Positions 2,176-48,794 of a stretch of 49,524 nt of DNA are shown here, piece by piece. Each line of letters starts with the position of its first letter. Within the stretch, counting starts at the first letter, position 1. The stretch comes from Clostridia bacterium (GTDB lineage Bacteria > Bacillota > Clostridia > Christensenellales > Aristaeellaceae). A program made the translations under genes and the position numbers. Below the pieces are notes generated by a model, which was given only the letters and a program-made list of their open reading frames with translations, was not told where the DNA came from and made no database searches. Where the stretch lies: contig JAFRTK010000103.1 in assembly GCA_017427165.1 (NCBI GenBank), forward strand, positions 1 through 49,524. The letters are read 5' to 3'.

Positions 2176-2218
2176 CCTTCCCCGCATGGAACCCCAATTG
2201 AAACAGAAAGTGAGATCA

Positions 2219-4123
2219 GTGACATTGAAACGCAAATGGTTATGGTGCTGCCTCGTCATCCTGCTGCTTTTCCCGGCCGTCGTGCTGGCCGATGTGGCTT
2301 ACGAAGGAAAAAACTATCCTGAAAGCGCGGAATACATTGATCTGGGTGACCTCGTGGTCCGTGATTTTGACGGGCTGATCGGGTTCCTGGAGCAGATGCC
2401 CGGCCTGCGCCGTGTCGATATGTGGCAGACCAAAATGGACCGGGAACACTGTGACCTGCTCGCATCCCGCTTTCCGGAAATCCAGTGGGGATGGACGCTG
2501 GTCATCAAAAGTGCGGATCATGAGCACCTGATCCGTACGGATTATACCTCCTGGTCCACGCTTCACAATAATTCCAGCCTCCAGCACAGCAGCGAAGACT
2601 TTGAAATCCTGAAGTACTGCTGGAACCTGCTGGCGCTGGACATCGGGCACAACAATGTCACCAGCCTCGATTTCCTTTACAGCCTGCCGAACCTGCGCGT
2701 GCTGATTGCTGCCTGCAACCATGTGACGGACATTACCCCGATCGCCTCCCTGAAGGACCTGGAATACGCGGAACTGTTCAAGAACGACATCCAGGACCTG
2801 TCTCCGCTCACCGGCCTGCCCCATCTGCTGGACCTGAATATCTGCTTCAACCATGTGCAGGATTACACCCCGGTCAAAACCCTGCCCGCGCTGAAACGCC
2901 TGTGGATGTTTGCCAGCCAGAAGTACAATGTGAAACCGGATGCCGCCGTGGTGGCAGATCTGGCCGCGGCGCTCCCGGATACGGAGATTGACCATACGCA
3001 TTACTCGACCACCGGTACCTGGCGCTTCATCTACGGTGAACGCCGCCACCCCCACTACGATGCCATCGTCCGGATGTTCGGCGAAGACAGTAAACATCCC
3101 CACTACGAATATGTCGCCTTTGAGGACAGCTTCCCGCTGGAGAACACGGACACCGGATACACCGGTGCTCCCGCCGTTCCGGTTCCGGAAACCCCGGCTG
3201 CCGCGGAAGCGGCCCCGGCCGGGGCTGCCCTGAAAGAGGCGGAACCGCTTGCGCTCCTGCAGCCCCAGGATTTCTCGGATAAGGGATACCTGCTGCCCGT
3301 CGATTTCTCCGTCGGACCGGCCCCGAAGGCGGAAGGATTTACCACACCGCTTTCCTATGAGGACTCCACCATCTCCGCCCAGGTGACCGCTGCGAACACA
3401 GGCTCCTGCTCCTACTGGTACTGCGATGTGAAGATCAGCGACGCGTCCCAGCTTCGCACGATGTCTGCCAGCCGTTCCGGCGCGTTTGACAGCGAAAACG
3501 CCGAGCTGCGGGCGGAAACCCTTTTCGATCGTTCTTCCGCAGTCGTCATGATCAGCGGGGACTTCTGGGGAAGCTCGGAAAAGCGGGGCCTCGGATACAT
3601 CGTCCGGCAGGGAGTCCTGTTCAAGGACAGCCTGGATGAGGGAGGCCGCTGGGACAGCCGGCTGATGGATGTCCTGGTGATTGATGAGGACGGCGATTTC
3701 CAGGTCCTGGACCGCCCGGTAAAGGGATCCATCGGCGGTACGGTGAACGGGAAACGCATCCTGCAGGCATTCTCCTTCGGACCGGCCCTTGTCGAAAACG
3801 GCGAGGCGTTTACCGCCTTTGAAGGAGAGCAGAAGTGGATTGATATGTCCGCCAATGACCGGCGCCAGCGGATGTGCATCTGCCAGACCGGACCGCTGAG
3901 CTACCGGATGGTTTGCTGTGCCGGTCCCTTCCGGGGCAATTCCGGAATGACGCTGCGGGAGTTTGCCGACCTGGTTGCTTCCCTGGGTGTGGAGACCGCC
4001 TATAATCTGGACGGCGGGGACTCCACCTCCCTGTTCTTCAATAAAGGCCGGATCAATAATTACGGCAGCACCTCCCAGCGAAAGCTGCGGGATATCATCT
4101 ACTTCGCGTCAGCGGAACAGTAA
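2219..4123 (+). CDS. exported LRR plus phosphodiester glycosidase (NAGPA-type) fusion protein
   Basis: About 634 residues from the GTG at 2219. This start places a clean signal peptide (KRKW, then a Leu/Val core, then VLA-D) at the N-terminus; an ATG at 2165 overlapping the CapA gene is an alternative. Residues about 137-234 hold several leucine-rich repeats (LDIGHNN, LIAACNHV, AELFKNDI, LNICFNHV) spaced about 22 residues apart. A Pro/Ala-rich linker follows near residues 325-345. The C-terminal half (about 370-634) is a phosphodiester glycosidase domain, recognised by FSFGPALV, TGPLSYRMV, the signature NLDGGDSTSL (about 597-606) and a final DIIYF. NAGPA-type domains cleave sugar-1-phosphodiester bonds; in bacteria they are linked to exopolysaccharide or wall polymer turnover. 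The LRR part probably binds a ligand or surface. The actual substrate is unknown. Confidence 0.8.
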   Translation: MTLKRKWLWCCLVILLLFPAVVLADVAYEGKNYPESAEYIDLGDLVVRDFDGLIGFLEQMPGLRRVDMWQTKMDREHCDLLASRFPEIQWGWTLVIKSADHEHLIRTDYTSWSTLHNNSSLQHSSEDFEILKYCWNLLALDIGHNNVTSLDFLYSLPNLRVLIAACNHVTDITPIASLKDLEYAELFKNDIQDLSPLTGLPHLLDLNICFNHVQDYTPVKTLPALKRLWMFASQKYNVKPDAAVVADLAAALPDTEIDHTHYSTTGTWRFIYGERRHPHYDAIVRMFGEDSKHPHYEYVAFEDSFPLENTDTGYTGAPAVPVPETPAAAEAAPAGAALKEAEPLALLQPQDFSDKGYLLPVDFSVGPAPKAEGFTTPLSYEDSTISAQVTAANTGSCSYWYCDVKISDASQLRTMSASRSGAFDSENAELRAETLFDRSSAVVMISGDFWGSSEKRGLGYIVRQGVLFKDSLDEGGRWDSRLMDVLVIDEDGDFQVLDRPVKGSIGGTVNGKRILQAFSFGPALVENGEAFTAFEGEQKWIDMSANDRRQRMCICQTGPLSYRMVCCAGPFRGNSGMTLREFADLVASLGVETAYNLDGGDSTSLFFNKGRINNYGSTSQRKLRDIIYFASAEQ

Positions 4124-6179: not shown

Positions 6180-6236
6180 ATGAAAAGATGCAAACAGAAC
6201 GGATATTTTTCCATTTGTGGAAAAAGGGAGGAAAAT

Positions 6237-9119
6237 ATGAGGAAATGGATTGCATGCCTGCTGGGAGTCATGCTGGCGGCAGCCGCATTCAGTACGGTCC
6301 TGGCGGACCCGGAGAAGCCCGAATGGGAGTACAATGCCCGTGACGCGAAAATCACAAAATATAACGGTCCCGGCGGAGAAGTGGTCGTTCCGGCGGAGAT
6401 CGACGGTAATCCGGTCATTTTTATCGATGGCAGCACATTTCCTTCCAGCCGGGAGGATATCACTTCCATCACGTTCCCGAGCGGGATTGAAGGCTTTTAC
6501 AATGTGCTGAATACCGCACCCTCCCTGGAACGGATTGTCCTGCCCGATACCCTGGAGGTAATCGGCAACGGTGCGCTGGGATACTGCCCGAAGCTGAAGG
6601 AAATCACCTTCCCGGCCTCCCTGCGGTTCATCAATGCCCAGCTGCTGTTCTCCATGGACAGCATGGAAACAGTCACCTTCCTGGGGGAATGCCCGGTGAT
6701 CAGCGACGCCAATTCCGTCCTTTCGGGGCTGCCTTCCGGAGCGGTGATCCATGTGCCGGATGACCAGGTGGACGCGTACCGTGCCGTGCTGACATCTGTC
6801 AGTCCCGAACAGATCCGGCCGTCTGGCAAAGCAGCCGAACCATATCACTCCCCCGATATAGACTTTGCCTTTGATCCGGCTTCCGGCACGATTACCGGCT
6901 GCAGTACCATGCGGGGCTGGATTGAGGTCCCGGTGGAAATAGGCGGAGTACCGGTCCGGGCACTGGGCGCGTACAGCTTTTCCGGCTGTACAAACCTTCA
7001 TGCCGTCATCCTTCCGGACAGCCTGGAGGAAATCGGGGAATGCGCCTTCGGCCGGCTGAATCATCTGACCTGGACAGAGATCCCCGCCGGAGTCAAAGTG
7101 CTCGGCCCGGAAGCATTCCAGTACTATAAGGGATATTTCCTGGACCTCCCGGACGGATTGACGGAAATACCGGACAGGTGTTTCAACGCCTCCGGCCTGC
7201 AGTCCATCACCCTTCCCCCGTCGGTCCGTTCAATCGGTGAACAGGCCTTCCGCGGTTCTTCCCTCCGCGAGGCATACTTCCCTGCCGGCCTGGAAAGCAT
7301 CGGAAAGGAAGCCTTTTCCGGATCCCGGATACTGGAATACCTGTATTTTGACGGAACCTCCCTCCCGCAGATCGGGGAAGGTGCCTTTTCCGGAACGGAA
7401 AGCCGGCTGGCCGATGTGGACCTGAACTGGCGCGCATCGAAACAGGCCATGCTGGATGCCCAGGCATACTTCGATTCCCTGGGATTCTCCGCCCGCGTCT
7501 GGCGTGCCCAGAACCCGGAAGTGAATTACCATGAAAGCCAGCTCGGCGAATACCATGACGGCCTGTTCGCCGGCTATTCCGGTACCATGACCGCCATCCG
7601 GCCGTACGACAGCTACGACAGCGTCGAAACCACCGGCGTGGCGGACGATGCCCTGAAGGGAAACCAGATCGTCACATACTTCGCGGTCTGCTATAACGAC
7701 GAGGTGACCCGGATCGGAAAGGAAGCCTTTGCGGACAGCGTCCTGGAAAAAGTCGACCTGTTCGATTCCGTCACCGCCATCGGTGCGGAAGCGTTCCGCA
7801 ATTCCCGCCTGAAGGAAATAACCATTCCTGCCGGTGTGACGGAAATCGGGAGCCGCGCTTTTGCGGACTGCCCCGCGCTGGAAACCGTCACCGTGCTGTG
7901 TGATCCGTCGGTGATTCCGGCGGACGCGTTTGACGGCAGCGGCAGTATCCGGCGCGTCCGGACCGCGGATGATGACGGAGCGGACAGCATTGCGCTCTGC
8001 AGCCGCCTGGGCCTGCATATTGCTTCCCTGACACCGACCCCTGTGCCCACCGCGACCCCGTCCCCGACGCCGGAACCCACACCGGAACCCACGCCCGAAC
8101 CGACTCCGGAGCCTACACCGGAACCCACCCCGGCGCCGGTGGCTCCGTCGGAGGCTGCCTGGAACCGGTACGGCGGTGAGTGGTATGTGCTGGAAATGGT
8201 CAGTGACGGAGAGATCATGCGTCCTTCGGACTTCGGTGCCGTCATGATCCTGTCCCTGAACCGGGACGGTACAGCCGCCATGACCGGTACCGGCAGTGAT
8301 TCATTCGGTACCTGGACCGCGGATGAAGCGGGAATTTCCGTGACCATCGACGGCAGCCCCGTACCCGGCACCGAAGCGGACGGCATCCTGACCATGGCGA
8401 TGGACGGAATGTCCATGACCCTGAACCGGGAAGCGCCCGCAGCGCCGTTCACCCCCGCTGAAGCGGTCCCGGCCGCGGATGTATCCGCATTTGCGGGCAC
8501 CTGGAAAGCCGCCTGGCTGTGCGGGGACGGAATGATGATGGCGGCGGATTCCGCGCAGGCGCTGAGCTCCTGGGAAATGCTCTTCGGCTCCGCGGACCAG
8601 GCTGTGACAGTGTCCGGTACGCACGCGGTTTACTTCGGGCATGATGAGGACTTTGTGTTTGCGAACGGCCGGCTGGAAAACCTGGCCGGTCCGGTCGAAG
8701 GCCTGGAGGATACCGGTATCTTCGATAAAATCATCACCCTGCGGGCGGACGGCATGCTGTGCCTGCAGGTGATGGGATTCGAAATCTACCTGGTGCCGGA
8801 CAGCAGCGTGCCGGCCGTTCCGGCCCCGGCTCCCGCCGGCAGCGGAATCGCGATGGACGTCCGGTACAGCGGTGTCCGTTACACAGCTTCCGGAGTCACG
8901 GTCGCAGGCACGCCGGGCGATATGGAATACTCGCTTGTTTTCCATGAAAACGGCACCGTGGATTTCACGATGGCCACAATGACGCTGTCCCTCTCCTGGA
9001 GCATGGATGGAACGGATTATGTGATTGACTACAGCGGCATGCCGCTGCGCTGCACACCAAACAGCGAAGGCCTGGAAATGGATTACTTCGGCACCATGCT
9101 GCTGCAGATGAATCCGTAA
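6237..9119 (+). CDS. BspA-like leucine-rich-repeat surface protein with TPEP linker and beta-rich C-terminal repeats
   Basis: 960 residues from the ATG at 6237, set by GGGAGGA (6226-6232); a longer reading frame to 6180 has no such site. A signal peptide covers residues 1-22 (ending VLA-D). Residues about 30-590 contain many BspA/LRR_5 type repeats of the form I-x-x-I-x-F/L-P-x-x-L-x-x-I-G-x-x-A-F, in two blocks with an irregular stretch between them. Residues 611-634 are a TPEP linker. Three C-terminal segments follow (about 639-735, 750-856, 869-960), each mostly beta strand with an extracellular lipocalin-like look (for example GTWTADE, GTWKAAW). There is no LPXTG or C-terminal anchor helix, so attachment is unclear. 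BspA-type proteins bind host or microbial surfaces; a role in adhesion is likely but not shown. Confidence 0.85.
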   Translation: MRKWIACLLGVMLAAAAFSTVLADPEKPEWEYNARDAKITKYNGPGGEVVVPAEIDGNPVIFIDGSTFPSSREDITSITFPSGIEGFYNVLNTAPSLERIVLPDTLEVIGNGALGYCPKLKEITFPASLRFINAQLLFSMDSMETVTFLGECPVISDANSVLSGLPSGAVIHVPDDQVDAYRAVLTSVSPEQIRPSGKAAEPYHSPDIDFAFDPASGTITGCSTMRGWIEVPVEIGGVPVRALGAYSFSGCTNLHAVILPDSLEEIGECAFGRLNHLTWTEIPAGVKVLGPEAFQYYKGYFLDLPDGLTEIPDRCFNASGLQSITLPPSVRSIGEQAFRGSSLREAYFPAGLESIGKEAFSGSRILEYLYFDGTSLPQIGEGAFSGTESRLADVDLNWRASKQAMLDAQAYFDSLGFSARVWRAQNPEVNYHESQLGEYHDGLFAGYSGTMTAIRPYDSYDSVETTGVADDALKGNQIVTYFAVCYNDEVTRIGKEAFADSVLEKVDLFDSVTAIGAEAFRNSRLKEITIPAGVTEIGSRAFADCPALETVTVLCDPSVIPADAFDGSGSIRRVRTADDDGADSIALCSRLGLHIASLTPTPVPTATPSPTPEPTPEPTPEPTPEPTPEPTPAPVAPSEAAWNRYGGEWYVLEMVSDGEIMRPSDFGAVMILSLNRDGTAAMTGTGSDSFGTWTADEAGISVTIDGSPVPGTEADGILTMAMDGMSMTLNREAPAAPFTPAEAVPAADVSAFAGTWKAAWLCGDGMMMAADSAQALSSWEMLFGSADQAVTVSGTHAVYFGHDEDFVFANGRLENLAGPVEGLEDTGIFDKIITLRADGMLCLQVMGFEIYLVPDSSVPAVPAPAPAGSGIAMDVRYSGVRYTASGVTVAGTPGDMEYSLVFHENGTVDFTMATMTLSLSWSMDGTDYVIDYSGMPLRCTPNSEGLEMDYFGTMLLQMNP
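8067..8138 (+). repeat. in-frame 12-bp tandem repeat encoding a TPEP linker
   Basis: Five Thr-Pro-Glu-Pro units plus one Thr-Pro-Ala-Pro unit, one per 12 bases, with synonymous variation between copies. It encodes an extended spacer between the LRR part and the C-terminal domains, and could vary in copy number by slippage. Confidence 0.9.
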
Positions 9120-31493: not shown

Positions 31494-32690
31494 TCACTGC
31501 TTCTCATCTTCAGGAGACTGCAGGCCAAGCTGCTGCCGGTAGCGTTCGAATTCCTCCCGGCTGCACCGTACAAAATGCCCGGGGGCAACTTCCCTCATTT
31601 CCGGCTGCTCACTTCCATAGTTATGGGCTGCCAGCGGGTCATACTTCAGCCGCTTCCGCTTCTTCTCCATCAGCGGATCCGGAAGGGGAATCGCGCTCAG
31701 CAGGGACTGGGTATACGGATGCAGCGGGTGGGCGAACAGCTCATCGGATGAGGCCAGTTCCACCAGATGCCCGTAATACATGACGCCGATCCGGTCCGAG
31801 AAATATTTGACCACCGACAGGTCGTGCGCGATAAACAGGAATGTCAGGCCGAATTCATGGCGCAGCTCATTGAGCAGGTTGATCACCTGGGCCTGGATGG
31901 ACACGTCCAGTGCGGATACCGGTTCATCAGCAATGATCAGCTCCGGTTCCATCACCACAGCCCGCGCCACGCCGATCCGCTGGCGCTGGCCGCCTGAAAA
32001 CTCGTGGGGATACCGGTTGGCATGTTCCCGCACCAGGCCGACCTTTTCCAGGATGTCATACACTTTCTTTTCAAGGACCTCCCGGTCCTTTTCCCCGCGG
32101 ATCACCAGGCCTTCCGCAATGGTATCCATGACCGTCATCCGGGGGTCCAGCGAAGCGATGGGATCCTGGAAGATCATCTGGATCTGCGTAATGTAGCGCT
32201 GCTTTTTCGCGATGCGAAGCGCCTCGTCATACTCCTGCCGGATCCGTTTTTCTTCTTCACCCTGCGCGTTTTCCAGCAGGGGAGCATATTTCTCCCGGAC
32301 CTCTTTGACCAGCTCGTCCTTGTAAAGCTTGTCGCACTGCTCATGATCCCGGCGTGCGGAGCGGATTTCTTCCCGCAGTTTCGCAATCTCCGCTTCCAGT
32401 TCGCTGCGGCGTTCCGGGGATGCTTCCCTGCATTCCTTCCGGGCTTCCCGGATCCGGTCTTTATAGGACTTGGTCCCGGCAGCAATCCGCTTTCCCTTGA
32501 AATAGATACTTCCGGACGTAATGTCATACAGCTTGATGATCGAGCGGCCGGTAGTTGTCTTGCCGCAGCCGGATTCACCGACCAGGCCGAAAACCTCGCC
32601 TTTCTGGATCTCAAAGCTGACGTCATCCACCGCTTTGTTGGGTCCGAAGTACTGGCACAGGTGTTCCACCCTCAGCAACGGTTCACTCAT
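31494..32690 (-). CDS. oppF: oligopeptide ABC importer ATPase, OppF type (system A), with insertion
   Basis: 398 residues. Walker [10 protein letters not shown] (39-46), Q-loop MIFQDP (Gln175), signature [12 protein letters not shown], Walker [13 protein letters not shown], switch AHDLSV, and the OppF-type C-terminal [19 protein letters not shown]. OppF proteins are normally about 320 residues; here about 90 extra charged residues (about 72-165) sit between Walker A and the Q-loop and are predicted to be coiled coil ([17 protein letters not shown]). The ATPase core itself is intact. It overlaps oppD by eight bases. It pairs with OppD to energise peptide import through OppBC. Confidence 0.92.
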
Positions 32691-34833
32691 TTCCGCTCAC
32701 CTCCGCTGCCCGTGCTTTCATCTTCCGGATACGCTCCGTCACCGCCGCGGGAGGATCCACCTTCGGTGCGTCCGGATGCAGCAGCCATGTTGCTGCCCAG
32801 TGGGTTTCTGAAATGGGGAATACCGGCGGCTCCTGTTCAAAGTCGATTTCCATCGCATACCGGTTCCGTTCCGCGAACGCGTCTCCCTTCGGCGGATAAA
32901 TCATGTTCGGGGGCGTGCCGGGAATTGCTTCCAGCTTCTCCTTGGTGTCCAGGTCCGGCATGGAGGAAAGCAGGGCCCATGTATAGGGATGGGCCGGCGA
33001 ATAGAAGATCTCCTCCGAAGTCCCGTATTCCACGATTTTGCCCGCATACATCACGGCGATCCGATCCGCCATGTTGGCCACCACACCCAGGTCGTGCGTG
33101 ATGAAGATAATGGACAGGTTCCGTTTTTCCTTCAGGCTGTTGATCAGCTCCAGGATCTGCGCCTGGATCGTCACGTCCAGCGCGGTCGTCGGCTCGTCAC
33201 AGATCAGGATGTCCGGGTCCGCCGCAAGGGCGATTGCAATCACGATACGCTGCCGCATACCGCCGGAGAATTCAAAGGGATACTGGCGGTAACGGACCCG
33301 CGGCTCGGAAATACCGACTTCCTCCATCAGCTTCAGCGCTTTGTTCCGGGCGGTCCATTTATCCATCCGTGCCGCCATGCCGGCCGCTTTTTCTTCCAGA
33401 TCCCGGATCACCTGTTCCGTCTTCCGGGCTTTGTCTTCCGTTCCTTCCTCTGCGATCCGTTCCTCATAATGGTCTTTCAGGCCGGAGATCACGCGTTCCA
33501 TGTTGGAGGAAACCGTATCCATATCGATGACGGTCGGGGCCGGAACGGTCCAAGTCTTTCCCTTTGCCGCGCGCTTTTCCGCACGGGCCTTCTCCCGCAG
33601 GTACTTCTTTTCCTTGCGCCCGTTGCTGCGAAGGCCTTCCCGCCACCGGGATGTCAGGTATTTCATATTTCCGGTGAACGTGCATGCCATGCTGTCCTTG
33701 ACCAGGTCCATGGGGTCAATCGATTCATCGACGGCCCTGCATACCGGCCCCAGCTCCGGAATCAGCGCGTCCGGCCCGCCGGAAGCCAGCGTTTCCATTC
33801 CGTGCTCCAGCATTTCCAGCGCCTTCCGCCGGCGTTCCGTATATTCCGCGTCCGAACGCCGGATTCCGGTCTCCGCGCAGGCCCTGAATTCCTTCATGAA
33901 TCCGTCTTCCAGCGATTCGCTGTGTCCGGCTTCCTTCCAGGTCTTCTCCAGGTAGTCCGGCTTCTCCCGTTCCAGCGCTTTCTTCAGGCATTCCTGAATG
34001 GCCTGGACGGACGACGCTTTATCCGAGAAATCTCCATTTTTCTGGCAGGCGCGCAGGCCGCGCGTCAGCGCGTCCACATGCTCACGGATCTGTTTGAATT
34101 CTTCTTCGGGCATGACGTCCGGATGGATGGAACGGCGGGTGAATTCCTTCACCTTTTTGGCGTCAGACAGATCTTTCCAGGCATTCTTTCCGATCAGGTA
34201 AAGGATATTTTCACATTCGGTTTCCGCTTCTTCAGCGCAGCTGCGGGCCGCCTGGTACGCCTGTTCCTTCCGGACGCTCGCTTTCTCCAGTTCCTTCAGT
34301 TCCCGGATCTGCCGGCTGATCTCCGCGCTCTTTTCCGGAGCAGCTGCTTCCATCCGCTTCGACAGCTGGTCCATCCGTGCGGCAAACTCCCTGCGGGAGG
34401 ACTTCCGCCGGGCCCTGCTCTTGAGCAACATGGCTTCCGTCAGCTGTTTTCCGATCCGCATGATCGGGTTCAGGCTGGAAAGGGGGTCCTGGAAGATCAT
34501 GGCGATCTTGTCGCCGCGCAGGTGGTAGAAATCATCCTCGCCGATCTTCAGCAGGTCCATGCCGTTGTACAGGATTTCTCCCTCTTCGGTAATGGCGTTG
34601 CCGGCCTGGATGCCCAGGATGGCTTTGCTGGTAACCGATTTGCCCGAACCACTCTCGCCGACGATAGCCAGCGTTTCTCCCTTCATCAGGTCAAAATTGA
34701 TTCCGCGGACCGCCTGCACCTTGCCTGCAGAGGTACGGAAGGAAATCCGCAGATTATGAACCTGCAGTTTCTTTTCCGCCTGCGTCTTCTGTTCCGTCCG
34801 GGACGGCATAACGTTCATATTGTTCTCTGACAT
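32683..34833 (-). CDS. oppD: oligopeptide ABC importer ATPase, OppD type (system A), with very large insertion
   Basis: 716 residues against about 330-350 for ordinary OppD. Walker A GESGSGKS (59-66), Q-loop MIFQDP (Gln115), then [18 protein letters not shown]. From about residue 140 to 490 lies an insertion of roughly 330 residues rich in Lys, Glu, Arg and Ala, with helical, partly coiled-coil composition. The domain resumes with [11 protein letters not shown], signature FSGGMRQRI (522 on), Walker [11 protein letters not shown] and ITHDLGVV. The OppD C-terminal block [17 protein letters not shown] is present. All catalytic motifs remain, so it should be active. The insertion sits where the helical subdomain normally meets the permease coupling helices. 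It starts by one-base overlap with oppC (TAATG). Confidence 0.93.
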
Positions 34834-36365
34834 TAATCAGCACCTCGCAGCGATGGATTGAAAGCGTCCCGTAGTCCGTTGCCGAACAGGTTGAATGAGA
34901 TTTCCAGCAGAGATATGAACAATGCCGGGAAGAAGATGATATAAGGATCGGTTGCCAGGTAATCCTTCCCGTTTGCCAGCATCGTACCAACCGATGTCAT
35001 CGTGGAGGACTCCAGGTTGACAATGTTCAGGTACGTCAGGGAACTCTCCGTGAAGATGACGCCGGGAATGACCAGGATGGATCCGGTAATGATCGTTCCC
35101 AGCGAATTCGGGAAGATATGCCGGAACATCAGGCGGCTGTCCCGGGCGCCCAGTGTGCGTGCGGCCAGGACATACTCCTGTCCCTTGAAGCGGTAGAACT
35201 GCATCCGGACCCGGGATGCCATCCCGATCCAGCCGGTCAGTACAAACGCAAACAGCAGCGCACCGATCACGCCGACCTTCTTTGCCAGGTGCAGCTGGAA
35301 CAGGACGGTGACGACGATGAAAGGGATTTCCGCCAGGATATCGGAAATCCGTTCCATCACCAGGTCCGTTGTGCCGCCGTAATAGCCTTCGATCGCACCG
35401 TAGATGGTTCCGATAAAGAGGTTGATTGCCGACACGCAGATCGCCAGCAGGAAGGAAAAGCGTGCACCGGCGGCAAGCCTTGTAAAGATATCCTGTCCTC
35501 GGGCGTTCGTCCCGAAAACAAAACCCGGTTCAAATCCGTAACGGTACTGGAAATAGGTATACTTGTTGATCCGGGTGACATAGCTCTTGGCCGTACTGGT
35601 TCCTGCGACCCGGGCATAGGCCATCGGGTGTTCGGGATCGTTGTCCGCGGCAATCCGCAGGCTGTGGTAGGCTGTATCCTCCGGAGTGGTGGTCCGGTAG
35701 ATGCTCTTGAGGTTTCCCTCCTTGTCCAGCTTGGGCTGGCCCTTCTTGTCCACTTCGTACCAGATATTGGCGTCGGTCTGCTTGGCGTCCTTGATGGCAG
35801 GATAAATCACCTGAATCCCGTGCTCATCCTGCCATTTCTGGATATCTTCAAACTGATCCCCGGTCAGGGTCAGGTACAGCATGCCCATGGATGTATAGTT
35901 GTCGACCCGGAGATCGTAGAATGTGGATTTTCCGCTGGCCGTCGGGTCCTTGTAATCGGCGCGGTAGGTTGCCCGGATTGTTTCCAGGCCGGTTTCTTCC
36001 GCGATCGCCCGGTAATAATGGTATTTCCCGCTGTTTACCGTCACGTCGCTGCATCCGTCGATGCCCAGGAACGGAATCTTCGGGGGCAGCTTTGTGTAAT
36101 TCAGGTACATGGTATCCGTCAGGGCCCGCGAATAGGGCGTTTCGCAGAAGATCGGGATAAGGATGGCATACAGCACCAGAAGAAGGATAATCCAGGCAGC
36201 AGCCACGGATCCCTTGTTCTTCCGGAACCTGTTCATGGCGTCACGGAAATAGCCAACCGGTTTGGTTTCCAGTTTTTTGTCATGTGTCCTGCCTTCCATG
36301 GGTACAAAACGGAATTTATCCTTCGGTACCTCGAAGGCGGCGGTATTCATCATCTTCTCACTCAT
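34833..36365 (-). CDS. oppC: oligopeptide ABC importer permease, OppC type (system A), with extracellular insertion
   Basis: 510 residues against about 300. TM1 lies near 54-74. About 190 extra residues (75-284) follow before FGTNARGQDIFTRLAAGARFS, which corresponds to the usual GTD-x-x-G-R-D block. That region is predicted outside the membrane and contains alternating beta and charged stretches. The normal five-helix permease core then follows, with the coupling region EYVLAARTLGARDSRLMFRHIFPNSLGTII. The start overlaps oppB by four bases (ATGA). Such a loop could form a docking domain for the binding protein. Confidence 0.92.
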   Translation of the reverse strand: MSEKMMNTAAFEVPKDKFRFVPMEGRTHDKKLETKPVGYFRDAMNRFRKNKGSVAAAWIILLLVLYAILIPIFCETPYSRALTDTMYLNYTKLPPKIPFLGIDGCSDVTVNSGKYHYYRAIAEETGLETIRATYRADYKDPTASGKSTFYDLRVDNYTSMGMLYLTLTGDQFEDIQKWQDEHGIQVIYPAIKDAKQTDANIWYEVDKKGQPKLDKEGNLKSIYRTTTPEDTAYHSLRIAADNDPEHPMAYARVAGTSTAKSYVTRINKYTYFQYRYGFEPGFVFGTNARGQDIFTRLAAGARFSFLLAICVSAINLFIGTIYGAIEGYYGGTTDLVMERISDILAEIPFIVVTVLFQLHLAKKVGVIGALLFAFVLTGWIGMASRVRMQFYRFKGQEYVLAARTLGARDSRLMFRHIFPNSLGTIITGSILVIPGVIFTESSLTYLNIVNLESSTMTSVGTMLANGKDYLATDPYIIFFPALFISLLEISFNLFGNGLRDAFNPSLRGAD

Positions 36366-37324
36366 ACTTTTCTGCTCCCCATTCTGATCCTCGGGTCAAT
36401 GAACCCGTAGCTGATATCCACAATAATACCGGACACAAGCCCGATAAGCGTATAGAACGCGGAAAGCAGCAGGAAGAAGTTATAGTCAGGCGTCGCGGAT
36501 GAAACGGAAGCGACATACAGCGGGCCGACGCCCGGAATCCCGAAAATCTGCTCAATGATCAGTGATCCGCCCATGATCCCGATGAACTCACCCAGGATCA
36601 TCGGGAAAATCGGAACCATGGCGTTCCGAAGGGCATGGCGCACTGTCGTCTGCGCCCGTGTCAGGCCTTTCGTCCGGGCCAGCAGCAGGTAATCGCTGGT
36701 CAGGACTTCTGTCAGTTCCGCCCGGGTATACCGTGTCAGCTGTGCCACGGTTCCGAACCCGAGCGACATCACCGCCGGAACGATACTGACAAATGTGGAC
36801 CATGAAAAATAATCATATCCGGCATTCATCTGGAACGGGAACCATTTCAGTTTGAAGCACAGGAAATACTGCACCAGGAATGCGTATACATAGCTGGGCG
36901 TGGATACAAAAATCACGACCAGCGTTGAAATCAGCTGATCCTGCCATTTGTTTTTCTTCAGCGCCGCGTAAATGCCCAGCAGCAGGCCCAGGGGCACTGA
37001 TATCAGCATGGTATAGGCGTTCACAATCACCGTGGCGGGCATCTTTTCGATAAACTTCCCCCAGACGTCCTGCCCCAGGTACAAAACCTCACTGACACCC
37101 CAGTCCTGTCCGATCAGCGACCTCTGGAGAAAGATCACATACTGCTCAAGCAGCGGTTTGTTGTATCCCAGTGCCTCCCGCCGCATCTCAATCAGCTGCA
37201 TATCTTTGCCGAACTGCTTGGCCGGTTTGTTGGGCAGCAGTTTGACCAGGATAAAGCACATGGAGATGATGATCAGAAAGGTAAACAGCATCAGCACAAT
37301 TCTTTTGAGAACATATTTTCCCAC
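36362..37324 (-). CDS. oppB: oligopeptide ABC importer permease, OppB type (system A)
   Basis: 320 residues, GTG start behind AAGGGG. Standard architecture: TM1, a short extracellular part with LLEQYVIFLQRSLIGQDWGVS, then five helices. The coupling motif is VLTSDYLLLARTKGLTRAQTTVRHALRNAMVPI, and it ends YGFIDPRIRMG. No insertion, unlike the OppB of system B. It is first permease gene after a structured 250-base gap from the binding protein gene. Confidence 0.93.
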   Translation of the reverse strand: MGKYVLKRIVLMLFTFLIIISMCFILVKLLPNKPAKQFGKDMQLIEMRREALGYNKPLLEQYVIFLQRSLIGQDWGVSEVLYLGQDVWGKFIEKMPATVIVNAYTMLISVPLGLLLGIYAALKKNKWQDQLISTLVVIFVSTPSYVYAFLVQYFLCFKLKWFPFQMNAGYDYFSWSTFVSIVPAVMSLGFGTVAQLTRYTRAELTEVLTSDYLLLARTKGLTRAQTTVRHALRNAMVPIFPMILGEFIGIMGGSLIIEQIFGIPGVGPLYVASVSSATPDYNFFLLLSAFYTLIGLVSGIIVDISYGFIDPRIRMGSRKV

Positions 37325-37362
37325 GCTTCAAACCCCTTTTTCCTTGCGGTTCATTTCTTTTC

Positions 37363-37550
37363 CTGCCCGTGCAGGGATGGTTCCATGAACAGTGAAGCAT
37401 ACAACGTTCACCGCGTTGCATGCTTCGCTGTTCATGCAGGGATTGTTTCACAAAACGGAAATACCATCTCCGGCAGCCGGAAACCCGGTTGCCGGAGATG
37501 GCCCTGTTCTGGTATCCAGAACCGGCGGAGGGCCTTTCGGCCCTGCCGCC
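37363..37550 (-). promoter_or_regulatory. array of five hairpins between binding protein A and oppB
   Basis: In order: 37363-37367 with 37372-37376 (5 bp); 37385-37406 with 37414-37435 (22 bp, two mismatches); 37464-37480 with 37485-37501 (17 bp, one mismatch); 37506-37512 with 37516-37522 (7 bp); 37524-37534 with 37539-37550 (11 bp with a bulge). None has a good T-run on the minus strand. They probably act as processing or stabilising elements that raise the binding protein level over the permeases. Confidence 0.75.
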
Positions 37551-37574
37551 TTTCATTCTTCCGTCCCGTGAATC

Positions 37575-39947
37575 TTACTTATAGTTCAGGGTGCCGCCCT
37601 GTTCAGCAACAAACGCATCCCAGGCAGCATCATCATAGTTGTAGGTCATGTACTTGACGCCGCCGCGGCTCAGCGGGAATACTTCATCCTCGATGTAGTA
37701 TTCGATCTTCATGCCCTTCAGCTTGGCGGAAGCATCGCCCATCAGCGGGATGAAGTCATAGTTCTGCAGGATGATGTTTTCGAGCTCGCCCAGGACCAGG
37801 ATCCGGGTTTCCGCATTCGCGGTCACATCCAGTTCCACGTCTTCGCCCGCAGCGTTCTTGGCTGTGATCACATTGTTGGTGATGCTCAGGTACCAGGTCC
37901 AGACGTCCGTCGTGTACGCTTCGCCGTCGATCGTCACCGTCATCTGGGTTTCGGCGGGTTTCCAGGCGGGGTCATACTGATAGTTGGAGGAGACGTAAGC
38001 TTCGATCAGGCCGAAGGGATCGAAGGTGCTGCCGGTCCAGCCGACGCCGAAGAGCATATCCACCTGGTTGTTGCGCAGCGCATCGGCGAAGCCGTTGCCC
38101 AGGGTGGAGTCACGGTCAAACTTCAGCTTGCCTTCCAGCTTGGTGCCCTTGACTGCTTCGGTGTAATTGTTGACGATGAAGTCATAGCCGCTGTTGTAGA
38201 AAGCGGAAGTCGCGTTGGGCGTACCGACCATGATCAGGACGGTATCCGCATCGGTCATCAGGCCGGCTTCAATCGCCTGATCATAGGCCTTGTCGAAATA
38301 CTCGCGGGCCATCTCCAGGTTGTAGCCGGTGATGGAATCGATCGCGTCGTCCACGGTCGCATACAGCTTGCCTTCGCCGATTTCGTCCGCCAGACCCCAG
38401 AAGTCAACGACAACCTGCTTGGCGGTATCCGTGGTGCGGTAGAACAGGCCTTCTTCAGGATCCGCAACAATCTGGCTGCCGTAGAGGGCGAACGCCGGGA
38501 AGCTTGTCGGATCAGCCGCCAGCACGAACTCGGAACGGTTCATGGCCAGGGACATGGCGATACGGAAATCCTTGATCGTCAGGATCGTCTTGTTGATGTT
38601 CGCTCCGGCAGCTTCCTGCGCGGTCTTCAGCGCTGCCAGATCGGGGTTGAACGCCATCGCGAATACGGAGTCGCCCTCATCATAATAGGTGTAGTCGGAG
38701 GACGCGTATTCCTTGATGTAATCCTTGTTCAGGCCGTTGACGTCCAGCTTGCCGTTCAGGAACATTTCCATCCGGGTGGCGGGTTCCTGTACGTAGGAAA
38801 CATTGATCACGTCGGTCTGATACAGTCCTTCGAATTCCGGCAGGCTGTATCCGAACCATTTATCATTGCGGACCAGGTTGTATTCCTTGTCGCTCTGGAA
38901 GGAACCCAGCTTGTAGGGACCCCAGGACATCGTGGTTTCCTGGGAGGTGCAGTAGTTGTTGGTGTACACGCCGTCTTTCTCGGTCGCGCACTCATTATAC
39001 TTTGCTTCGTTGACCAGCCAGTTCGGAATACCGTAGTAGAGGTAAAAGCCTTCCAGGGGCTTGGCCAGGATCAGCACCAGTTCCTTGTCGCTGAGGGCCT
39101 TGACGCCAACCTTTTCAAACGGGAATCCGTCTTCATAGGCCTGGAAGTTCAGGAAAAGCTCATCCTCGGTCCACTCAACCAGCTGTTCGGGGCCAGCCCA
39201 TGTCGCATAGGCCGCGCCCTCACCGGTGGTGTAGAATTCATACAGTTCGCCGACGGTCAGGGGCGTTTCGACAACTTCGTTTTCCGCCGCGCCGGTCCAG
39301 GCTTTCGTCTCGAAATCGTATGTATCGCCGAAAGAATTGGCCCAGTTGATCCAGCCCTTTTCATCCTTGAAGGCGTCGATCAGTTCTTCAGTGGTCGCAA
39401 ATCCCTTGCTGGCCTTTACCTTGCCGTAGGAAGTGGGCTCAGTCAGGCCCTGCTTCAGATAGGCTTCGGCGTTCTCCACAACCAGGTTGCCGGAATAGAG
39501 GCCGTCCGCGCGGTGGTTCTGCGCTTTCGGATCCAGCAGGTACTGGGCGGAAGTCACGAAATCCGGAGCCGTGATGGGAGTGCCGTCTTCCCAGGCAAGG
39601 CCGTCCCGCAGGACGAATTTCCATGCGCGGGCGGTTTCGCCTTCCGCGATTCCCCATTCTTCACCGACATAGTCGGCGGAGACGTCGGTCGGGAAGTCTT
39701 CAACAGCCAGGGGCTTCAGGACGTAGCCGTCTTTGTCTTCGTTGAAATCGAATTCATAGAAAGCGGAGTACAGCCAGTCGGTAAGGCTGCTGTCAGTCGC
39801 CGTCTGCTGCTGGAAAGGGCTCCAGTTGGTCGGGAATTCCGCCGCAGCCGTACGGTACGTATAGGTCGGCGCGGTTTCTTCCGCAAACGCGGCGGTCAGG
39901 CTGGCCATCATGCAGAGAGCCAGTACCAGTGCTAAAAGTTTCCTCAT
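37575..39947 (-). CDS. oligopeptide-binding protein (SBP family 5) of system A
   Basis: 790 residues from the ATG at 39947 (AGGAGGGG upstream); larger than the usual 520-600. The signal peptide ends AAFA-E. The only nearby Cys (ALCMM) does not fit a lipobox, so type I cleavage and no lipid anchor is predicted. SBP5 features: an N-terminal strand YRTAAAEFPTNWSPF, KFVLRDGLAWEDGTPITAPDFV, then LVRNDKWFGY in the middle, FRIAMSLAMNRSEFV, and a final segment RILVLGELENIILQNYDFIPLMGD in normal order. Extra stretches lie near residues 130-245 and near the C-terminus. It captures extracellular peptides for OppBCDF encoded downstream. Confidence 0.92.
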   Translation of the reverse strand: MRKLLALVLALCMMASLTAAFAEETAPTYTYRTAAAEFPTNWSPFQQQTATDSSLTDWLYSAFYEFDFNEDKDGYVLKPLAVEDFPTDVSADYVGEEWGIAEGETARAWKFVLRDGLAWEDGTPITAPDFVTSAQYLLDPKAQNHRADGLYSGNLVVENAEAYLKQGLTEPTSYGKVKASKGFATTEELIDAFKDEKGWINWANSFGDTYDFETKAWTGAAENEVVETPLTVGELYEFYTTGEGAAYATWAGPEQLVEWTEDELFLNFQAYEDGFPFEKVGVKALSDKELVLILAKPLEGFYLYYGIPNWLVNEAKYNECATEKDGVYTNNYCTSQETTMSWGPYKLGSFQSDKEYNLVRNDKWFGYSLPEFEGLYQTDVINVSYVQEPATRMEMFLNGKLDVNGLNKDYIKEYASSDYTYYDEGDSVFAMAFNPDLAALKTAQEAAGANINKTILTIKDFRIAMSLAMNRSEFVLAADPTSFPAFALYGSQIVADPEEGLFYRTTDTAKQVVVDFWGLADEIGEGKLYATVDDAIDSITGYNLEMAREYFDKAYDQAIEAGLMTDADTVLIMVGTPNATSAFYNSGYDFIVNNYTEAVKGTKLEGKLKFDRDSTLGNGFADALRNNQVDMLFGVGWTGSTFDPFGLIEAYVSSNYQYDPAWKPAETQMTVTIDGEAYTTDVWTWYLSITNNVITAKNAAGEDVELDVTANAETRILVLGELENIILQNYDFIPLMGDASAKLKGMKIEYYIEDEVFPLSRGGVKYMTYNYDDAAWDAFVAEQGGTLNYK

Positions 39948-40075
39948 TAAGTGTCCCCTCCTGTATTGTTTTATTTTTCTGGGCATCTGCCCGAAAAAAC
40001 GAAATCAGAACAAGCCGGATTGGATTGCCCGAATGGTTGCTATTGATGATCTGTCCCTGTAAGAAGTACGGTTTG

Positions 40076-44053: not shown

Positions 44054-45016
44054 TTACATATGCGTCCTGGGATCCGAGGCATCCGCCAGGTTCTGGCCCA
44101 GAACGTACAGAATTACGGTAATGGCTGACGCGATGGCAACCGGCGGCCAGAATTCCCACGGATAGACCAGGAAGGCGCTCTGGGCCTGCTGGATCATTCG
44201 TCCGAGGGAGGGAATTTCAGCGCTCAGTCCGACACCGATATAGCTCAGGAACACCTCCGAGGAGATATAGCTCGGCAGCTCCGTCGCCAGCACCGTCACG
44301 ATCACGGAGGTCAGGAACGGCAGGATGTTCTTGCTGATCATCCGGGGAATCGGCGTGCCCAGGCAGCGGGACGCCAGCGAATACTCCCGGTCGCGGATGA
44401 TCATCACCTGGGTCCGGAAGAAGTAGGCGATTCCCAGCCAGCCGGTGATCGTCATGGCAAACACAAAGCTCCAGAAGCCCGAGCCGATTATGTATACCAG
44501 CACGGTAATCATCAGGATGTACGGCACGTTGGCAATAATGTTGTAGATCACCAGCATTACCTGGTCAAACCGCTTGCTGTATCCCCACACAGCGCCCAGG
44601 ATGATACCGATCGTCATGTTGATCGCCGCGCAGATGATAGCCAGCAGCAGGCTGGTCTGGGCCGATGCCCAGATTCCGTAGAAGATGCTGTTGCCCATGG
44701 GGCCGGTTCCCAGGATCCACTTGAAGGAGAATCCGTCGTATTTGGCCATGGCTGCGGCGGGAGAAAGGTTGAAAGAAGTGGCATCCCGGAGGTTTTCATA
44801 TGCGTCGTAGGGGGCAATCGCCGGAATCACAAAAGCGCACAGGAAAATCAGGATAAAGAGGATGATCATCACCAGGTTGGTTTTTTTGCGGAAAAATACG
44901 CGGAATACGGATGCCCAGTAGGAATACCGGGGTGCCGTGATTTTTTCGGACTGGATCGTATCCTTGTCGATAAACCGGAACAATCCGTCCTGGTTCCGGG
45001 TCGTCTGCTCAGACAT
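44054..45016 (-). CDS. oppC: oligopeptide ABC importer permease, OppC type (system B)
   Basis: 320 residues, start overlapping the oppB stop by one base (TGATG), with GGAGGT upstream. Normal OppC layout: a cytoplasmic lead of about 45 residues, TM1, a modest extracellular segment, WILGTGPMGNSIFYGIWASAQTS in place of the GTD-x-x-G-R-D block, four or five further helices, and the coupling region EYSLASRCLGTPIPRMISKNILPF. No insertion. It pairs with the enlarged OppB. Confidence 0.93.
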   Translation of the reverse strand: MSEQTTRNQDGLFRFIDKDTIQSEKITAPRYSYWASVFRVFFRKKTNLVMIILFILIFLCAFVIPAIAPYDAYENLRDATSFNLSPAAAMAKYDGFSFKWILGTGPMGNSIFYGIWASAQTSLLLAIICAAINMTIGIILGAVWGYSKRFDQVMLVIYNIIANVPYILMITVLVYIIGSGFWSFVFAMTITGWLGIAYFFRTQVMIIRDREYSLASRCLGTPIPRMISKNILPFLTSVIVTVLATELPSYISSEVFLSYIGVGLSAEIPSLGRMIQQAQSAFLVYPWEFWPPVAIASAITVILYVLGQNLADASDPRTHM

Positions 45017-46599
45017 CAGCGGCCACCTCCTTTGCTGGATGAAAGGGAGATCCGCGGGTCATACTTGGCCAGCAGCAGGTCGCCCAGGATCAGGGATATG
45101 ATGGACAGCGTGGTATAGAACACGGTACATGCCACGATGATGCCGTTGTCATATCCGTTGATGGCGTTGGTCAGCAGGCCGCCCACGCCGGGCACGGAAT
45201 AGACGCGCTCGGTAATGATCGCGCCGATCAGGCAGCCCAGGATGTTGCCGGGGATACCGTGTACCAGGTAGATCATCGCGTTGGGGCTGATGTGCTTCCG
45301 GTAGATTTCCTTTTCGCTCATGCCTTCCGCCCGGGCGAATTTCACGTAGTCACTGTTCATCTGGTCAATCATATACCGCCGCATCCACTTCATCAGGTTG
45401 CCGATGGACGGCAGCGCCAGGGAAAGGGTCGGCAGGATGTAGGCCAGTATTTTGGCCTCCGCGTTGGCAAACTTGTATGGCAGCCCGAACAGGGTGGTGC
45501 CGATGGCGGCAAACAGGAAGATGCGGGCCAGTCCGGGCACCGCAATGGAGAAAATGATGTAGCCGTTGCCGATCTTGTCCCCCAGTCCGTCCTTGTGCCG
45601 GGCCATGGCAATGCCCAGCGGCAGGCCGAACAGGTAGGCGATCGCGGTCGCGATCAGGCCGATCACAAAGGAGTTCTCCAGCATGGACAGTCCGTCGATC
45701 CGGTAGCTGTAGGTGGTGTACTGGTCCGGGAACTGCTTCATCTCCGTTTTAGTTCTGGGAGAACTGTTATAGGTCAGCGTATGGAAATCAATCGCTGAAT
45801 TGATATATTCATCCGTACCCAGCTTGGCCGGATACTGGGTCTGTGCCTTCACCTGGTCCCCGGTCGGCCGGTTGATGACGTCGGTGATTTCCTGTCCCCT
45901 GAACTTGGTAAAGGAAGTACCCAGGTTCAGGTGGATCCAGTTCTGGTGGATAAACGGGAAACGCCCGTCAAAGTACAGCTGGTATTTGTGCGTGGTACCG
46001 CTGCCCACCACCGCGAACAGGCCGCTGTACGGGTCATGCTCCACCCGGACATAGCGCTCTGTCAGTGCGGGATCCTGCACGTCGTTCACGGTTTCCACCG
46101 TAATCAGGTGCGTCAGGTAATTCCACAGGCGGGTAAATACGCTCCGTTCCACCACGGCGACCAGGTAGCCGTCGCCGCCCTTCTTGGCTTTGCCGGAAGG
46201 GGACCGCTGGGGTTCGAGATACTTGATCTTGTATCCTTCCTTCTCGAACATCTCAATAAACTCCTGGACGTCAGGATTGTCCAGGTAGGTATTTTCATTC
46301 TGAATGGCTTCCTTGGCTGCCTTGAACTCATCGCTCTTGGTATACTCCGCGCCGTACCGGCCCTCATATTTGGACCGCAGGAAGCTGGTGAAATCCGAAT
46401 ACTCCAGGTATCCGAATTTCTGATACTGGGCATACTCATAGATTGTCCGGTCGTTCAGGCTCTTCTTGTTCCAGACGTCGTCCATCTGGAATATGGCGCC
46501 CCTTGGAATCAGGTTATAGACCAGGAGCATAACGGTCGCGATTACGACCAGCAGCGAAAACAGGGAGAACAGAATCCGCCGCAGCATGTATCTTCTCAT
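45016..46599 (-). CDS. oppB: oligopeptide ABC importer permease, OppB type (system B), with extracellular insertion
   Basis: 527 residues from the ATG at 46599; a GTG four codons earlier is possible, and neither has a strong ribosome site. TM1 is near residues 9-29. About 190 extra residues (about 33-220) precede WIHLNLGTSFTKFRG, which aligns with the normal G-D-L-G-x-S segment, and a further stretch leads to TM2 near 308. The permease core then follows with MNSDYVKFARAEGMSEKEIYRKHISPNAMIYL and ends AKYDPRISL. The extra region is extracellular by topology. OppB of system A lacks it, while OppC of system A has a comparable one. Confidence 0.9.
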   Translation of the reverse strand: MRRYMLRRILFSLFSLLVVIATVMLLVYNLIPRGAIFQMDDVWNKKSLNDRTIYEYAQYQKFGYLEYSDFTSFLRSKYEGRYGAEYTKSDEFKAAKEAIQNENTYLDNPDVQEFIEMFEKEGYKIKYLEPQRSPSGKAKKGGDGYLVAVVERSVFTRLWNYLTHLITVETVNDVQDPALTERYVRVEHDPYSGLFAVVGSGTTHKYQLYFDGRFPFIHQNWIHLNLGTSFTKFRGQEITDVINRPTGDQVKAQTQYPAKLGTDEYINSAIDFHTLTYNSSPRTKTEMKQFPDQYTTYSYRIDGLSMLENSFVIGLIATAIAYLFGLPLGIAMARHKDGLGDKIGNGYIIFSIAVPGLARIFLFAAIGTTLFGLPYKFANAEAKILAYILPTLSLALPSIGNLMKWMRRYMIDQMNSDYVKFARAEGMSEKEIYRKHISPNAMIYLVHGIPGNILGCLIGAIITERVYSVPGVGGLLTNAINGYDNGIIVACTVFYTTLSIISLILGDLLLAKYDPRISLSSSKGGGR

Positions 46600-46648
46600 G
46601 AATACACCCACTTACCCAAAAAATAAATTCGGAAATAATACGCAAATG

Positions 46649-46739: not shown

Positions 46740-48794
46740 TTAATAGTCCACACCGATAACCTTCAGCATGTAGCCATTCACGCCGAACGTATCCAGATAG
46801 GTGGAAGGATCGCCGTAGTCGGGGCCCCAGCCGGATCCGTAGAAGAAGTCGAAGTTGCCGGCTTCACCGGACGCCGCGCGGTAACCGCAGGCGTAGAAGT
46901 CCGCGGAAGTGGTGGTCTCAACCAGGTTCACAACCACGTTCTCGGCTCCGAGGGTTTCCTCGATGGTCTGCTTGGAGACCTGTGCCTGGGCGGTGTTGGC
47001 TTCGTTAGCGGAATAGTACACGATGTCGATGGTGATCGGCCAGGTCACGCTGTCGCCCAGCTCTTCCTTGGCCTTGGCCAGGTAAGTCTTGGCCAGGTCA
47101 GCATTGTACCAGCCGTCGATGGCGTCCGCAACCTTGATTTCGCCGCCCATCTGATCCAGGTAGTACTGAACCATCTCGCCGTAGAAGGTGCCGGCAGCGA
47201 ATTCATGGCCGTCCGCATCCGTCGTGGCGTTCTCCAGGGAGACGAACTCGGGGTGGGTATACATGTTCCGGATGTTGGCCAGCTTCAGGTCTTCACCGCG
47301 GCTGGTGGCATTCACGGTCGCACGGTCCCACCCATGGGCCAGGGCTTTCCGGAAGCTCTTGTTCATCAGGGCAGTATGGGTGTCAATCTTCTGCTGCTCG
47401 GACTTGGGAGAAGCAGCCGCGCCGCTTTCCAGGGCGAAGGTGCCGCGGTTGACGTTCATGCCGCCGAAGTAGGTGGTGGAGGTGGTGTCGGAAACGTAGG
47501 CATACTTGTCGAAGTTGCCGTCGTCCTTGGCCATCTTCAGGGTGCCGCTCGCCTCGGTCAGGCCGCTGCCGGCGTACACACCGCTCACAACGTCATCGTA
47601 GAACGCCTTCATGTTCTCACCGTTGTCGTAGATCCAGGTGATGCTGTTGATCGTCACCTCGTCCGCACGGTAGTAGTTCGGGTTCTTCACGACGGCGATT
47701 TCAGAATCGGGATTCAGCTTCTGGAGGAGGAACGGACCGCTGTAGACCTGGGAGGCCACATCGGTGTTCTTGCCAAAGGTATAGGCTTCGGTATCGGCGA
47801 AAGCAGCCTGATATTCCTCAGCGCCGTAGACGCCGCCGTGGCTCAGGTACCAGTCTTCGCAGATCGGCAGGAAGCAGCTGTAGGTCAGCATGGTCATGAA
47901 GTAGGGGATATCGCCCTCCAGCGTGATCACCAGGGTCTGGTCATCAACAGCTTCATAGCCGACTTCGTCGAAGGAGCCGCCTTCCAGGTATTCATGAGCG
48001 CCCTTCACAACGCCTTCAACCAGCCACTCGAGGCCGGCCTTGGCATCCAGCATGTGATGGAAACCGGCAACAAAGTCGCCCGCGGTCACGTCGGCGTATT
48101 CTTCGCCTTCGGAGGTGAACCACTTGGCGCCTTCCCGGATGTGGAAGGTGTAGACGGAACCGTCATCGCTGACTTCCCAGGACTCCGCCATGGCGGGGCA
48201 CAGCTGGTTCAGGTTGTTGTACTGCACCAGGCCGTCCACACAGTTCACGGTGATTTCGGTATCGCTCTGGGAGGAGGTGTTCAGCCAGTCCAGGGTAACC
48301 GGAGCGGTGGCGAAGGTCAGCTTGTAATCGCTCTGGATCTTGTGGCCCTTCTCGGTCAGGTAAGCGGCAGGATCATAGGTTCCTTCGCCGGCAACAGCTT
48401 TGCTCCACTGATCGAGCAGGTCAGCCCGCTCGGCGGGGGTCAGGAACTCATCGGAGATGACCAGGCCGAACAGGCGGTCATCGTCATTGCCCCACTGGAC
48501 GTAGGGAACGGTACGGGGAGCGATCCGGCTGATGGTGTAGGCACCACCCTGGGTGGTGTTCGGAACCATCACGGCGCTGTCGAGCAGCGCGGCTTCCGCC
48601 TGCGCATACAGGACGAACCGTTCATCGTTGGTCGGAGCGGCTTTGGCGGCCTTCATCAGCTCGTCATAGTCACCCAGCAGTTCGAGATAGATCTCTTCAT
48701 CTTCGGCGCGTTCGTAAGCCACATCTTCTGCGGAAACGGAGGCGACACCCAGAATCATGCAGAGAGCCATCAACAGGGCAATCAGTTTCTTCAT
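46740..48794 (-). CDS. oligopeptide-binding protein (SBP family 5) of system B, apparently circularly permuted
   Basis: 684 residues from the ATG at 48794 (AAGGAGA upstream). The signal peptide ends SVSA-E and has no lipobox. Residues about 24-134 (DYDELMKAAKAA, RFVLYAQAEAALLDSAVMVP, GGAYTISRIAP) look like the segment that normally closes SBP5 proteins. Only then comes the usual beginning, YKLTFATAPVTLDWLNT, LVQYNNLNQLCPAMAESWEVS and FHIREGAKWF. The protein ends NFDFFYGSGWGPDYGDPSTYLDTFGVNGYMLKVIGVDY, exactly where a normal member would continue into the displaced segment. The reading frame is intact and codon use matches its neighbours. It should deliver peptides to system B. Confidence 0.9.
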   Translation of the reverse strand: MKKLIALLMALCMILGVASVSAEDVAYERAEDEEIYLELLGDYDELMKAAKAAPTNDERFVLYAQAEAALLDSAVMVPNTTQGGAYTISRIAPRTVPYVQWGNDDDRLFGLVISDEFLTPAERADLLDQWSKAVAGEGTYDPAAYLTEKGHKIQSDYKLTFATAPVTLDWLNTSSQSDTEITVNCVDGLVQYNNLNQLCPAMAESWEVSDDGSVYTFHIREGAKWFTSEGEEYADVTAGDFVAGFHHMLDAKAGLEWLVEGVVKGAHEYLEGGSFDEVGYEAVDDQTLVITLEGDIPYFMTMLTYSCFLPICEDWYLSHGGVYGAEEYQAAFADTEAYTFGKNTDVASQVYSGPFLLQKLNPDSEIAVVKNPNYYRADEVTINSITWIYDNGENMKAFYDDVVSGVYAGSGLTEASGTLKMAKDDGNFDKYAYVSDTTSTTYFGGMNVNRGTFALESGAAASPKSEQQKIDTHTALMNKSFRKALAHGWDRATVNATSRGEDLKLANIRNMYTHPEFVSLENATTDADGHEFAAGTFYGEMVQYYLDQMGGEIKVADAIDGWYNADLAKTYLAKAKEELGDSVTWPITIDIVYYSANEANTAQAQVSKQTIEETLGAENVVVNLVETTTSADFYACGYRAASGEAGNFDFFYGSGWGPDYGDPSTYLDTFGVNGYMLKVIGVDY

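Follow-up and report, generated by a model that had tools for sequence, protein, structure and literature searches.

Evidence for a natural circular permutation, opened in lobe 2, in an SBP5 oligopeptide-binding protein of gut bacteria

The product of the gene at 46740..48794 on the reverse strand of the window (the whole stretch of 49,524 nucleotides analysed here) is very probably an SBP5 protein with a natural circular permutation, its chain being opened some 25 residues past the W..D motif, in lobe 2, and its old ends linked. It would form the usual clamp, capture oligopeptides at their N-terminus and pass them to an OppBCDF importer. The permuted order has most likely been kept by selection in many gut bacteria, and it is most likely one of several within SBP5. 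The gene and its parts are as follows.

46740..48794, reverse strand: predicted circularly permuted SBP5 gene, 684 aa, stop included
48726..48794, reverse strand: signal peptide, about residues 1-23, ending in ...SVSA, without a lipobox cysteine (cleavage site and lipobox absence judged by eye)
48390..48707, reverse strand: moved closing segment, residues 30-135, from hhalign and the segment profile against the PDB
48327..48389, reverse strand: linker, residues 136-156, between the two homologous stretches, from the old C-terminus to the old N-terminus
46743..48326, reverse strand: main body, residues 157-684, with the start of lobe 1, domain II, most of lobe 2 and the new C-terminus
46806..46832, reverse strand: GWGPDYGDP, residues 655-663

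The open reading frame starts with ATG, and the frame remains open up to a GTG 27 codons upstream. Behind the signal peptide, the motifs YDEL, RFVLYAQAE, DSAVMVP and GGAYTIS follow one another in this order, and the C-terminus lies 26 residues from the first residue of DYGDP, counted from that residue. The first-pass annotation had described a closing segment behind the signal peptide, the opening block after it and an end of the protein where the closing part is due, a layout that the reading frame, the motifs and the swapped PDB matches given below all confirm. The Pfam and NCBIfam matches of the protein above threshold are of the SBP5 type, with 152.2 bits for PF00496 against a cut-off of 32.4. 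This model spans only the middle of the chain (residues 200-672, profile positions 4-362 of 368) and leaves the moved segment outside, so that Pfam cannot show the swapped order.

Comparison with solved structures revealed two homologous parts in swapped order relative to the relatives, neither of which is found twice; the closing segment, C-terminal in the normal order of SBP_bac_5, is N-terminal in the window protein. With phmmer against the PDB, residues 157-670 match AmiA chain residues 16-497 and residues 40-135 match 524-623. AliB and AliC also give two stretches in swapped order, and AliD gives the body stretch with phmmer and both stretches with a profile of 11 sequences. Searching the PDB with a profile of the moved segment (A4, 11 sequences) returned five distinct sequences at E ≤10, all of them SBP5 and all matched in the C-terminal part of the target: AliC (1.6e-11), AmiA (1.7e-8), AliD (2.2e-8), AliB (3.7e-7) and, weakly, DppE (0.41). 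Using hhalign against a profile of four normal-order cousins from the same genus, the segment aligns to columns 555-649/652 (probability 95.1, E 3.4e-8) and the rest of the protein to columns 42-535 (probability 100). The C-terminal helix alpha-19 is matched at its start only, by about residues 120-135.

The position of the break was mapped on AliD. According to PMC11192437, lobe 1 of AliD comprises residues 29-63, 64-190, 191-296 and 583-617, lobe 2 comprises residues 297-582, the C-terminal helix 622-652 packs against lobe 1, and the N-terminus of the peptide is held by W498 and D501. Since these two residues have the chain numbers 473 and 476, the numbering of that source equals chain number plus 25. 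The body of the window protein ends at chain residue 501 and the segment begins at 505, which places the break at residues 526-530, inside lobe 2. The moved piece consequently begins with the terminal portion of lobe 2, which reaches about residue 82 of the window protein, and continues through the final cross-over and the final stretch of lobe 1 into the C-terminal helix, of which it holds the start; lobe limits were transferred by alignment from PMC11192437. The first-pass annotation had placed the break at lobe 1, which this mapping corrects. W656 and D659 of the window protein align with W498 and D501 of AliD, and both are invariant in the 11 of 11 aligned members. According to PMC11192437, two variable regions of lobe 2, R1 (523-530 in AmiA) and R2, form pocket P2; by position, the break would lie at or near R1. 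With the break inside lobe 2, the N-terminal tether would shift to the other lobe.

The arrangement is widespread. Searching 61 genomes with the whole protein gave some match in 40 of them; the permuted protein is collinear over its length in 11 and split across contig ends in G029, and five genomes have normal-order cousins at 35-36%. A profile of the new junction detected the complete junction in 14/45 genomes of the genus, 8/297 of the order and 2/398 of the phylum. A scan of named genome contigs yielded 233 relatives, the best 80 of which were retained, some of them being the same contigs as in the genome searches. The titles among these best 80 name Clostridia, Lachnospiraceae, Oscillospiraceae, Erysipelotrichaceae, Bacilli and spirochaetes, and many give a rumen, gut or faecal source. 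In 160 loci, which overlap between searches, separate segment and body models sorted the ORFs into 97 permuted, 21 normal and 45 undecided ones, the last being beyond reach of the segment model of the window protein's family (family 1) or cut; these are mostly OppA-like and were read by motif or sorted with models of a second family (family 2, below). This corresponds to 90 distinct permuted ORFs in the phyla Bacillota and Spirochaetota. In 84 of the 90 the C-terminus lies 24-27 residues from the first DYGDP residue, and five are cut at the end of the locus. In one, L096, a stop codon in frame separates ORFs of 465 and 220 aa, through decay or sequence error. A rough pattern, which evidently misses some cases and hits others falsely, detects a lipobox in 53/90. 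Both SBPs of the window, at 46740-48794 and at 37575-39986 (reverse strand), have signal peptides without a lipobox (by eye), unlike many permuted relatives.

The window contig comes from a draft genome of 165 contigs that is 80% complete, and an error of assembly or binning could in principle create such an order. The same order is nevertheless found in other assemblies, including the single-contig G022 and G035, the two-contig G064 and named public contigs. Its presence in 14/45 genus genomes, two of them single-contig, and in 90 distinct ORFs shows that it is not an assembly error, and we regard an artefact as exceedingly improbable.

The moved segment and the body are both under purifying selection. 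For six pairs, dN is 0.07-0.19 against a dS of 0.94-1.52 in the segment and 0.12-0.17 against 0.56-1.09 in the body. The signal peptide and the linker are under weaker constraint, with dN 0.33 and dS 0.38 for the signal peptide of L002. These values also bear on the reading of residues 24-134 as an added domain of another kind on a truncated, decaying SBP5 that no longer works as a receptor. Such a reading would fit the fact that the body stops before the usual closing part, but the segment is homologous to the SBP5 closing part itself, and selection acts on both parts while the end position and the operon are conserved, which makes an added domain or decay very unlikely. In agreement with circular permutation, a second closing segment, which the first-pass annotation had named as an outcome that would speak against it, is absent from every ORF of the 160 loci as judged with the family-1 segment model.

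Phylogenetic trees of the two parts were computed separately, each with a quick method and without bootstrap. The body tree holds 109 of the 132 rows collected, after exclusion of cut, broken, repeated and near-identical rows (near-copies dropped by a k-mer rule). Its 71 permuted rows form one clade (SH-aLRT 98, starred) adjoining the normal-order cousins L012-L015, L076 and L162 (95, starred), in a tree flagged for long branches that meet, those of L162 and L068 among them. In the segment tree, built from 97 rows and only 107 columns, the permuted rows again form one clade (99, starred) and, together with the six nearest normal cousins, are split from the other 20 cousins (87, not starred). 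The segment tree thus shows the same split as the body tree, and both parts appear to share one history, which is the expectation under a permutation but not under a graft from a distant SBP.

A graft from a nearer source was also considered, in which an ancestor lost its own closing segment and gained one at the N-terminus from another AmiA-like paralogue, so that the two parts have different histories. The best BLAST matches of the window protein do differ, being L162, L014 and L012 for the body and L164, L166 and L168 for the segment, and the nearest normal-order relatives of family 1 are only about 33% identical, a distance compatible with a close paralogue as donor. Against this stand the agreement of the segment split with the body split, albeit at a support of 87 that is not starred, and the case of L031 in family 2, whose body and segment have the same nearest normal relatives, L038-L042. 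Permutation accounts for both observations without a donor, and the graft is improbable. We conclude that the gene arose via a rearrangement inside one SBP5 gene lineage.

Taken together, the swapped matches to solved relatives, the normal-order cousins in the genus, the conservation across genomes and the agreeing trees of the two parts uphold the circular permutation proposed in the first-pass annotation, and the same arrangement, which it had proposed to look for in related genomes, is present in 14/45 genus genomes and in 90 distinct ORFs. The route it had suggested, a tandem duplication followed by loss of both outer halves, fares less well: the signal peptide is located in the first half and would have been lost with it. 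As the signal peptide is retained, an internal deletion behind the signal peptide of the first copy, or another route, is required. No intermediate of a duplication, neither a two-segment ORF nor a segment without a body, was found among the ORFs of the 160 loci with the family-1 segment model.

The permuted gene is followed on the reverse strand by five genes.

45016..46611, reverse strand: OppB/AmiC-type permease, 531 aa, its permease domain (PF00528 at 329-522) preceded by a large region
44054..45016, reverse strand: OppC/AmiD-type permease, 320 aa
42230..44041, reverse strand: OppD-type ATPase, 603 aa
41282..42226, reverse strand: OppF-type ATPase, 314 aa
40142..41278, reverse strand: 378-aa protein without a Pfam match above cut-off

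Among the 80 named loci, counting those with room, OppB is encoded downstream of the permuted SBP in 78/79, OppC in 77/78, OppD in 73/74 and OppF in 70/71, and the 378-aa protein accompanies the operon in 55/63. In L217, L220 and L221, normal-order cousins stand first in operons of a similar kind. For OppB, OppC, OppD, OppF and the SBP, the NCBIfam models that score best are those of the mollicute Opp set, with every score below the curated cut-off. Since the permuted clade heads oppBCDF operons, the window protein is most likely the oligopeptide receptor of the adjoining Ami/Opp-type importer, with ligand and transport suggested by family and operon. The best weak matches of the 378-aa protein are AppA_SCHIC (E 0.064) and ApbE (E 0.092); an assignment as ApbE-like was set aside, as the latter value falls below the cut-off.

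Directly behind this importer, on the same reverse strand, 31494-39986 encodes another one of oligopeptide type, made up of an SBP, two permeases and two ATPases. Its SBP (37575-39986) has its best PF00496 stretch at residues 286-669 of 803 aa, and its closing part, judged by eye, is at the normal end. Elsewhere in the window, on the forward strand, 6180-9119 is a 979-aa ORF with BspA-type leucine-rich repeats, and at 2165-4123 leucine-rich repeats are joined to a phosphodiester glycosidase domain. In another locus (L133:5847-9983), a permuted SBP5 is fused behind BspA-type leucine-rich repeats and three SLH domains in a protein of 1379 aa, possibly a receptor held in the cell wall; oppBCDF and the 378-aa protein were not found in this 18-kb locus despite room for them.

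In the mechanism that we propose, the chain would have been opened in lobe 2 and the old C-terminus joined to the old N-terminus through the short linker, the opened loop presumably lying at the protein surface. The permuted chain should still fold into the usual two-lobed clamp, with the segment packing in its old place, and the protein would bind oligopeptides by their N-terminus and hand them to the OppBCDF importer encoded downstream. The exported N-terminus, lipid-anchored in many relatives, would leave from lobe 2 rather than lobe 1, so that the receptor likely hangs differently beside the transporter.

The first-pass annotation had treated the gene as a local oddity; it belongs instead to a widespread clade, and other SBP5 lineages have been permuted separately. 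Family 2, SBP5 proteins with a short OppA-like closing segment, is permuted in 7/45 genus genomes, two of them cut at contig ends, and in 9/297 order genomes, G066 being common to both counts; its members in G165 and G292 are divergent and have long branches. Compared with OppA (PDB 1b05), residues 103-549 of L027 align to 12-441 and residues 32-86 to 445-499, the latter match being weak alone (14.6 bits, i-Evalue 0.093). The break on OppA therefore falls at 441-445, in the loop equivalent to that of the family-1 break. As the two parts of L031 share their relatives L038-L042, family 2 represents a second, separate event.

Other breakpoints were also observed, and the positions given for them refer to the family-2 body model, which has 446 positions. 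L179 (L179:493-2271) starts at 358 and ends at 353, L192 (L192:814-2634) starts at 266 and ends at 260, and L212 (L212:709-2661), L213 and L224 begin at 371-372 and stop near 320-323, while L188 (L188:118-1974) is opened within the closing segment. A further quick tree was built with the pieces rearranged to the usual order; its 94 rows, 11 of them of undecided order, exclude listed duplicates and all genome_contigs loci. Its starred branches require at least two gains of the first kind, one for a family-2 clade comprising 12 rows and one for L188, as well as three of other kinds (L179; L192; L212/L213/L224). With family 1 this amounts to six separate events, three of which are seen in at least two assemblies: family 1, family 2 and the L212 group, the last in G525, G733 and G384, plus a copy with an inner stop in G708. 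L179, L188 and L192 come from one draft genome each, and no second copy of the same order was found for them among 5, 18 and 1 genomes, respectively. In the phylum sample, 84/299 genomes gave some match and 22 loci were classed, 19 as normal and three as permuted; the junction search would miss breaks near the junction itself. In the second half of another ORF, of 961 aa (L214), there is an SBP5 of normal order. The matches G525:C1:744215-745741, G733:C7:33237-34775 and G708:C1:2227928-2229571, at 26-27%, are collinear with most of permuted L212 and perhaps represent a further permuted subfamily.

We take lobe 2 of OppA to span about residues 271-486, and the breakpoints would fall inside it by an approximate mapping via L027. 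It is conceivable, at somewhat less than even chances, that the SBP5 proteins of Bacillota are a hot spot for natural circular permutation, with at least six events and at least four breakpoints, all new ends lying in lobe 2 and the exported, often lipidated N-terminus shifted repeatedly from lobe 1 to lobe 2; such a direction would point to selection on tether or docking rather than to mere tolerance.

SBP5 proteins are among the best-studied receptors of ABC importers, and a large clade opened in lobe 2, with a second lineage opened at the equivalent loop, is a natural experiment that can tell which regions of the fold and which tether point matter for delivery. As PF00496 covers only the middle of the chain, permuted proteins pass for ordinary SBPs in annotation, and about 100 residues of permuted SBP5 proteins are misplaced in any alignment that presupposes collinearity.

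A search of the open literature by title and start of abstract, most subscription journals lying outside its scope, found no precedent for a permuted SBP5. The closest solved relatives, AmiA, AliB, AliC and AliD (PDB 8a42, 8qlj, 8qlh and 8qlc; PMC11192437), are of the same SBP5 type by sequence in both parts. The Ami importer and the window system have in common the W/D pair for the peptide N-terminus, a set of two permeases and two ATPases, and a large extra region in the partner permease. These relatives have the normal order, whereas the chain of the window protein is opened in lobe 2 and its old ends are joined, and the lipobox cysteine that anchors Ami-type proteins is absent from it (by eye). 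OppA (PDB 1b05), the yardstick for the second permuted family, is likewise of normal order, as is the mollicute OppA (NF043077, MMSYN1_0169), the best NCBIfam model for the window protein; the idea that the latter might also be permuted was rejected, as the moved segment matches positions 786-880 of 896, the end of that model.

A natural permutation is known from another class of SBP. PMC4990184 describes Tp0684 (MglB-2), the glucose-binding SBP of Treponema, as naturally circularly permuted ("Type Ic / Cluster Bc"), with the first three strands of the N-lobe near the C-terminus. Its relatives occur among treponemes and among Gram-positives of the gut, and the authors raise tethering as a possible reason. 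By that description, Tp0684 binds glucose and belongs to a different SBP class from the window protein. Like the window protein, it is a permuted SBP of an ABC importer, in an arrangement common to a group of relatives from spirochaetes and Gram-positive gut bacteria.
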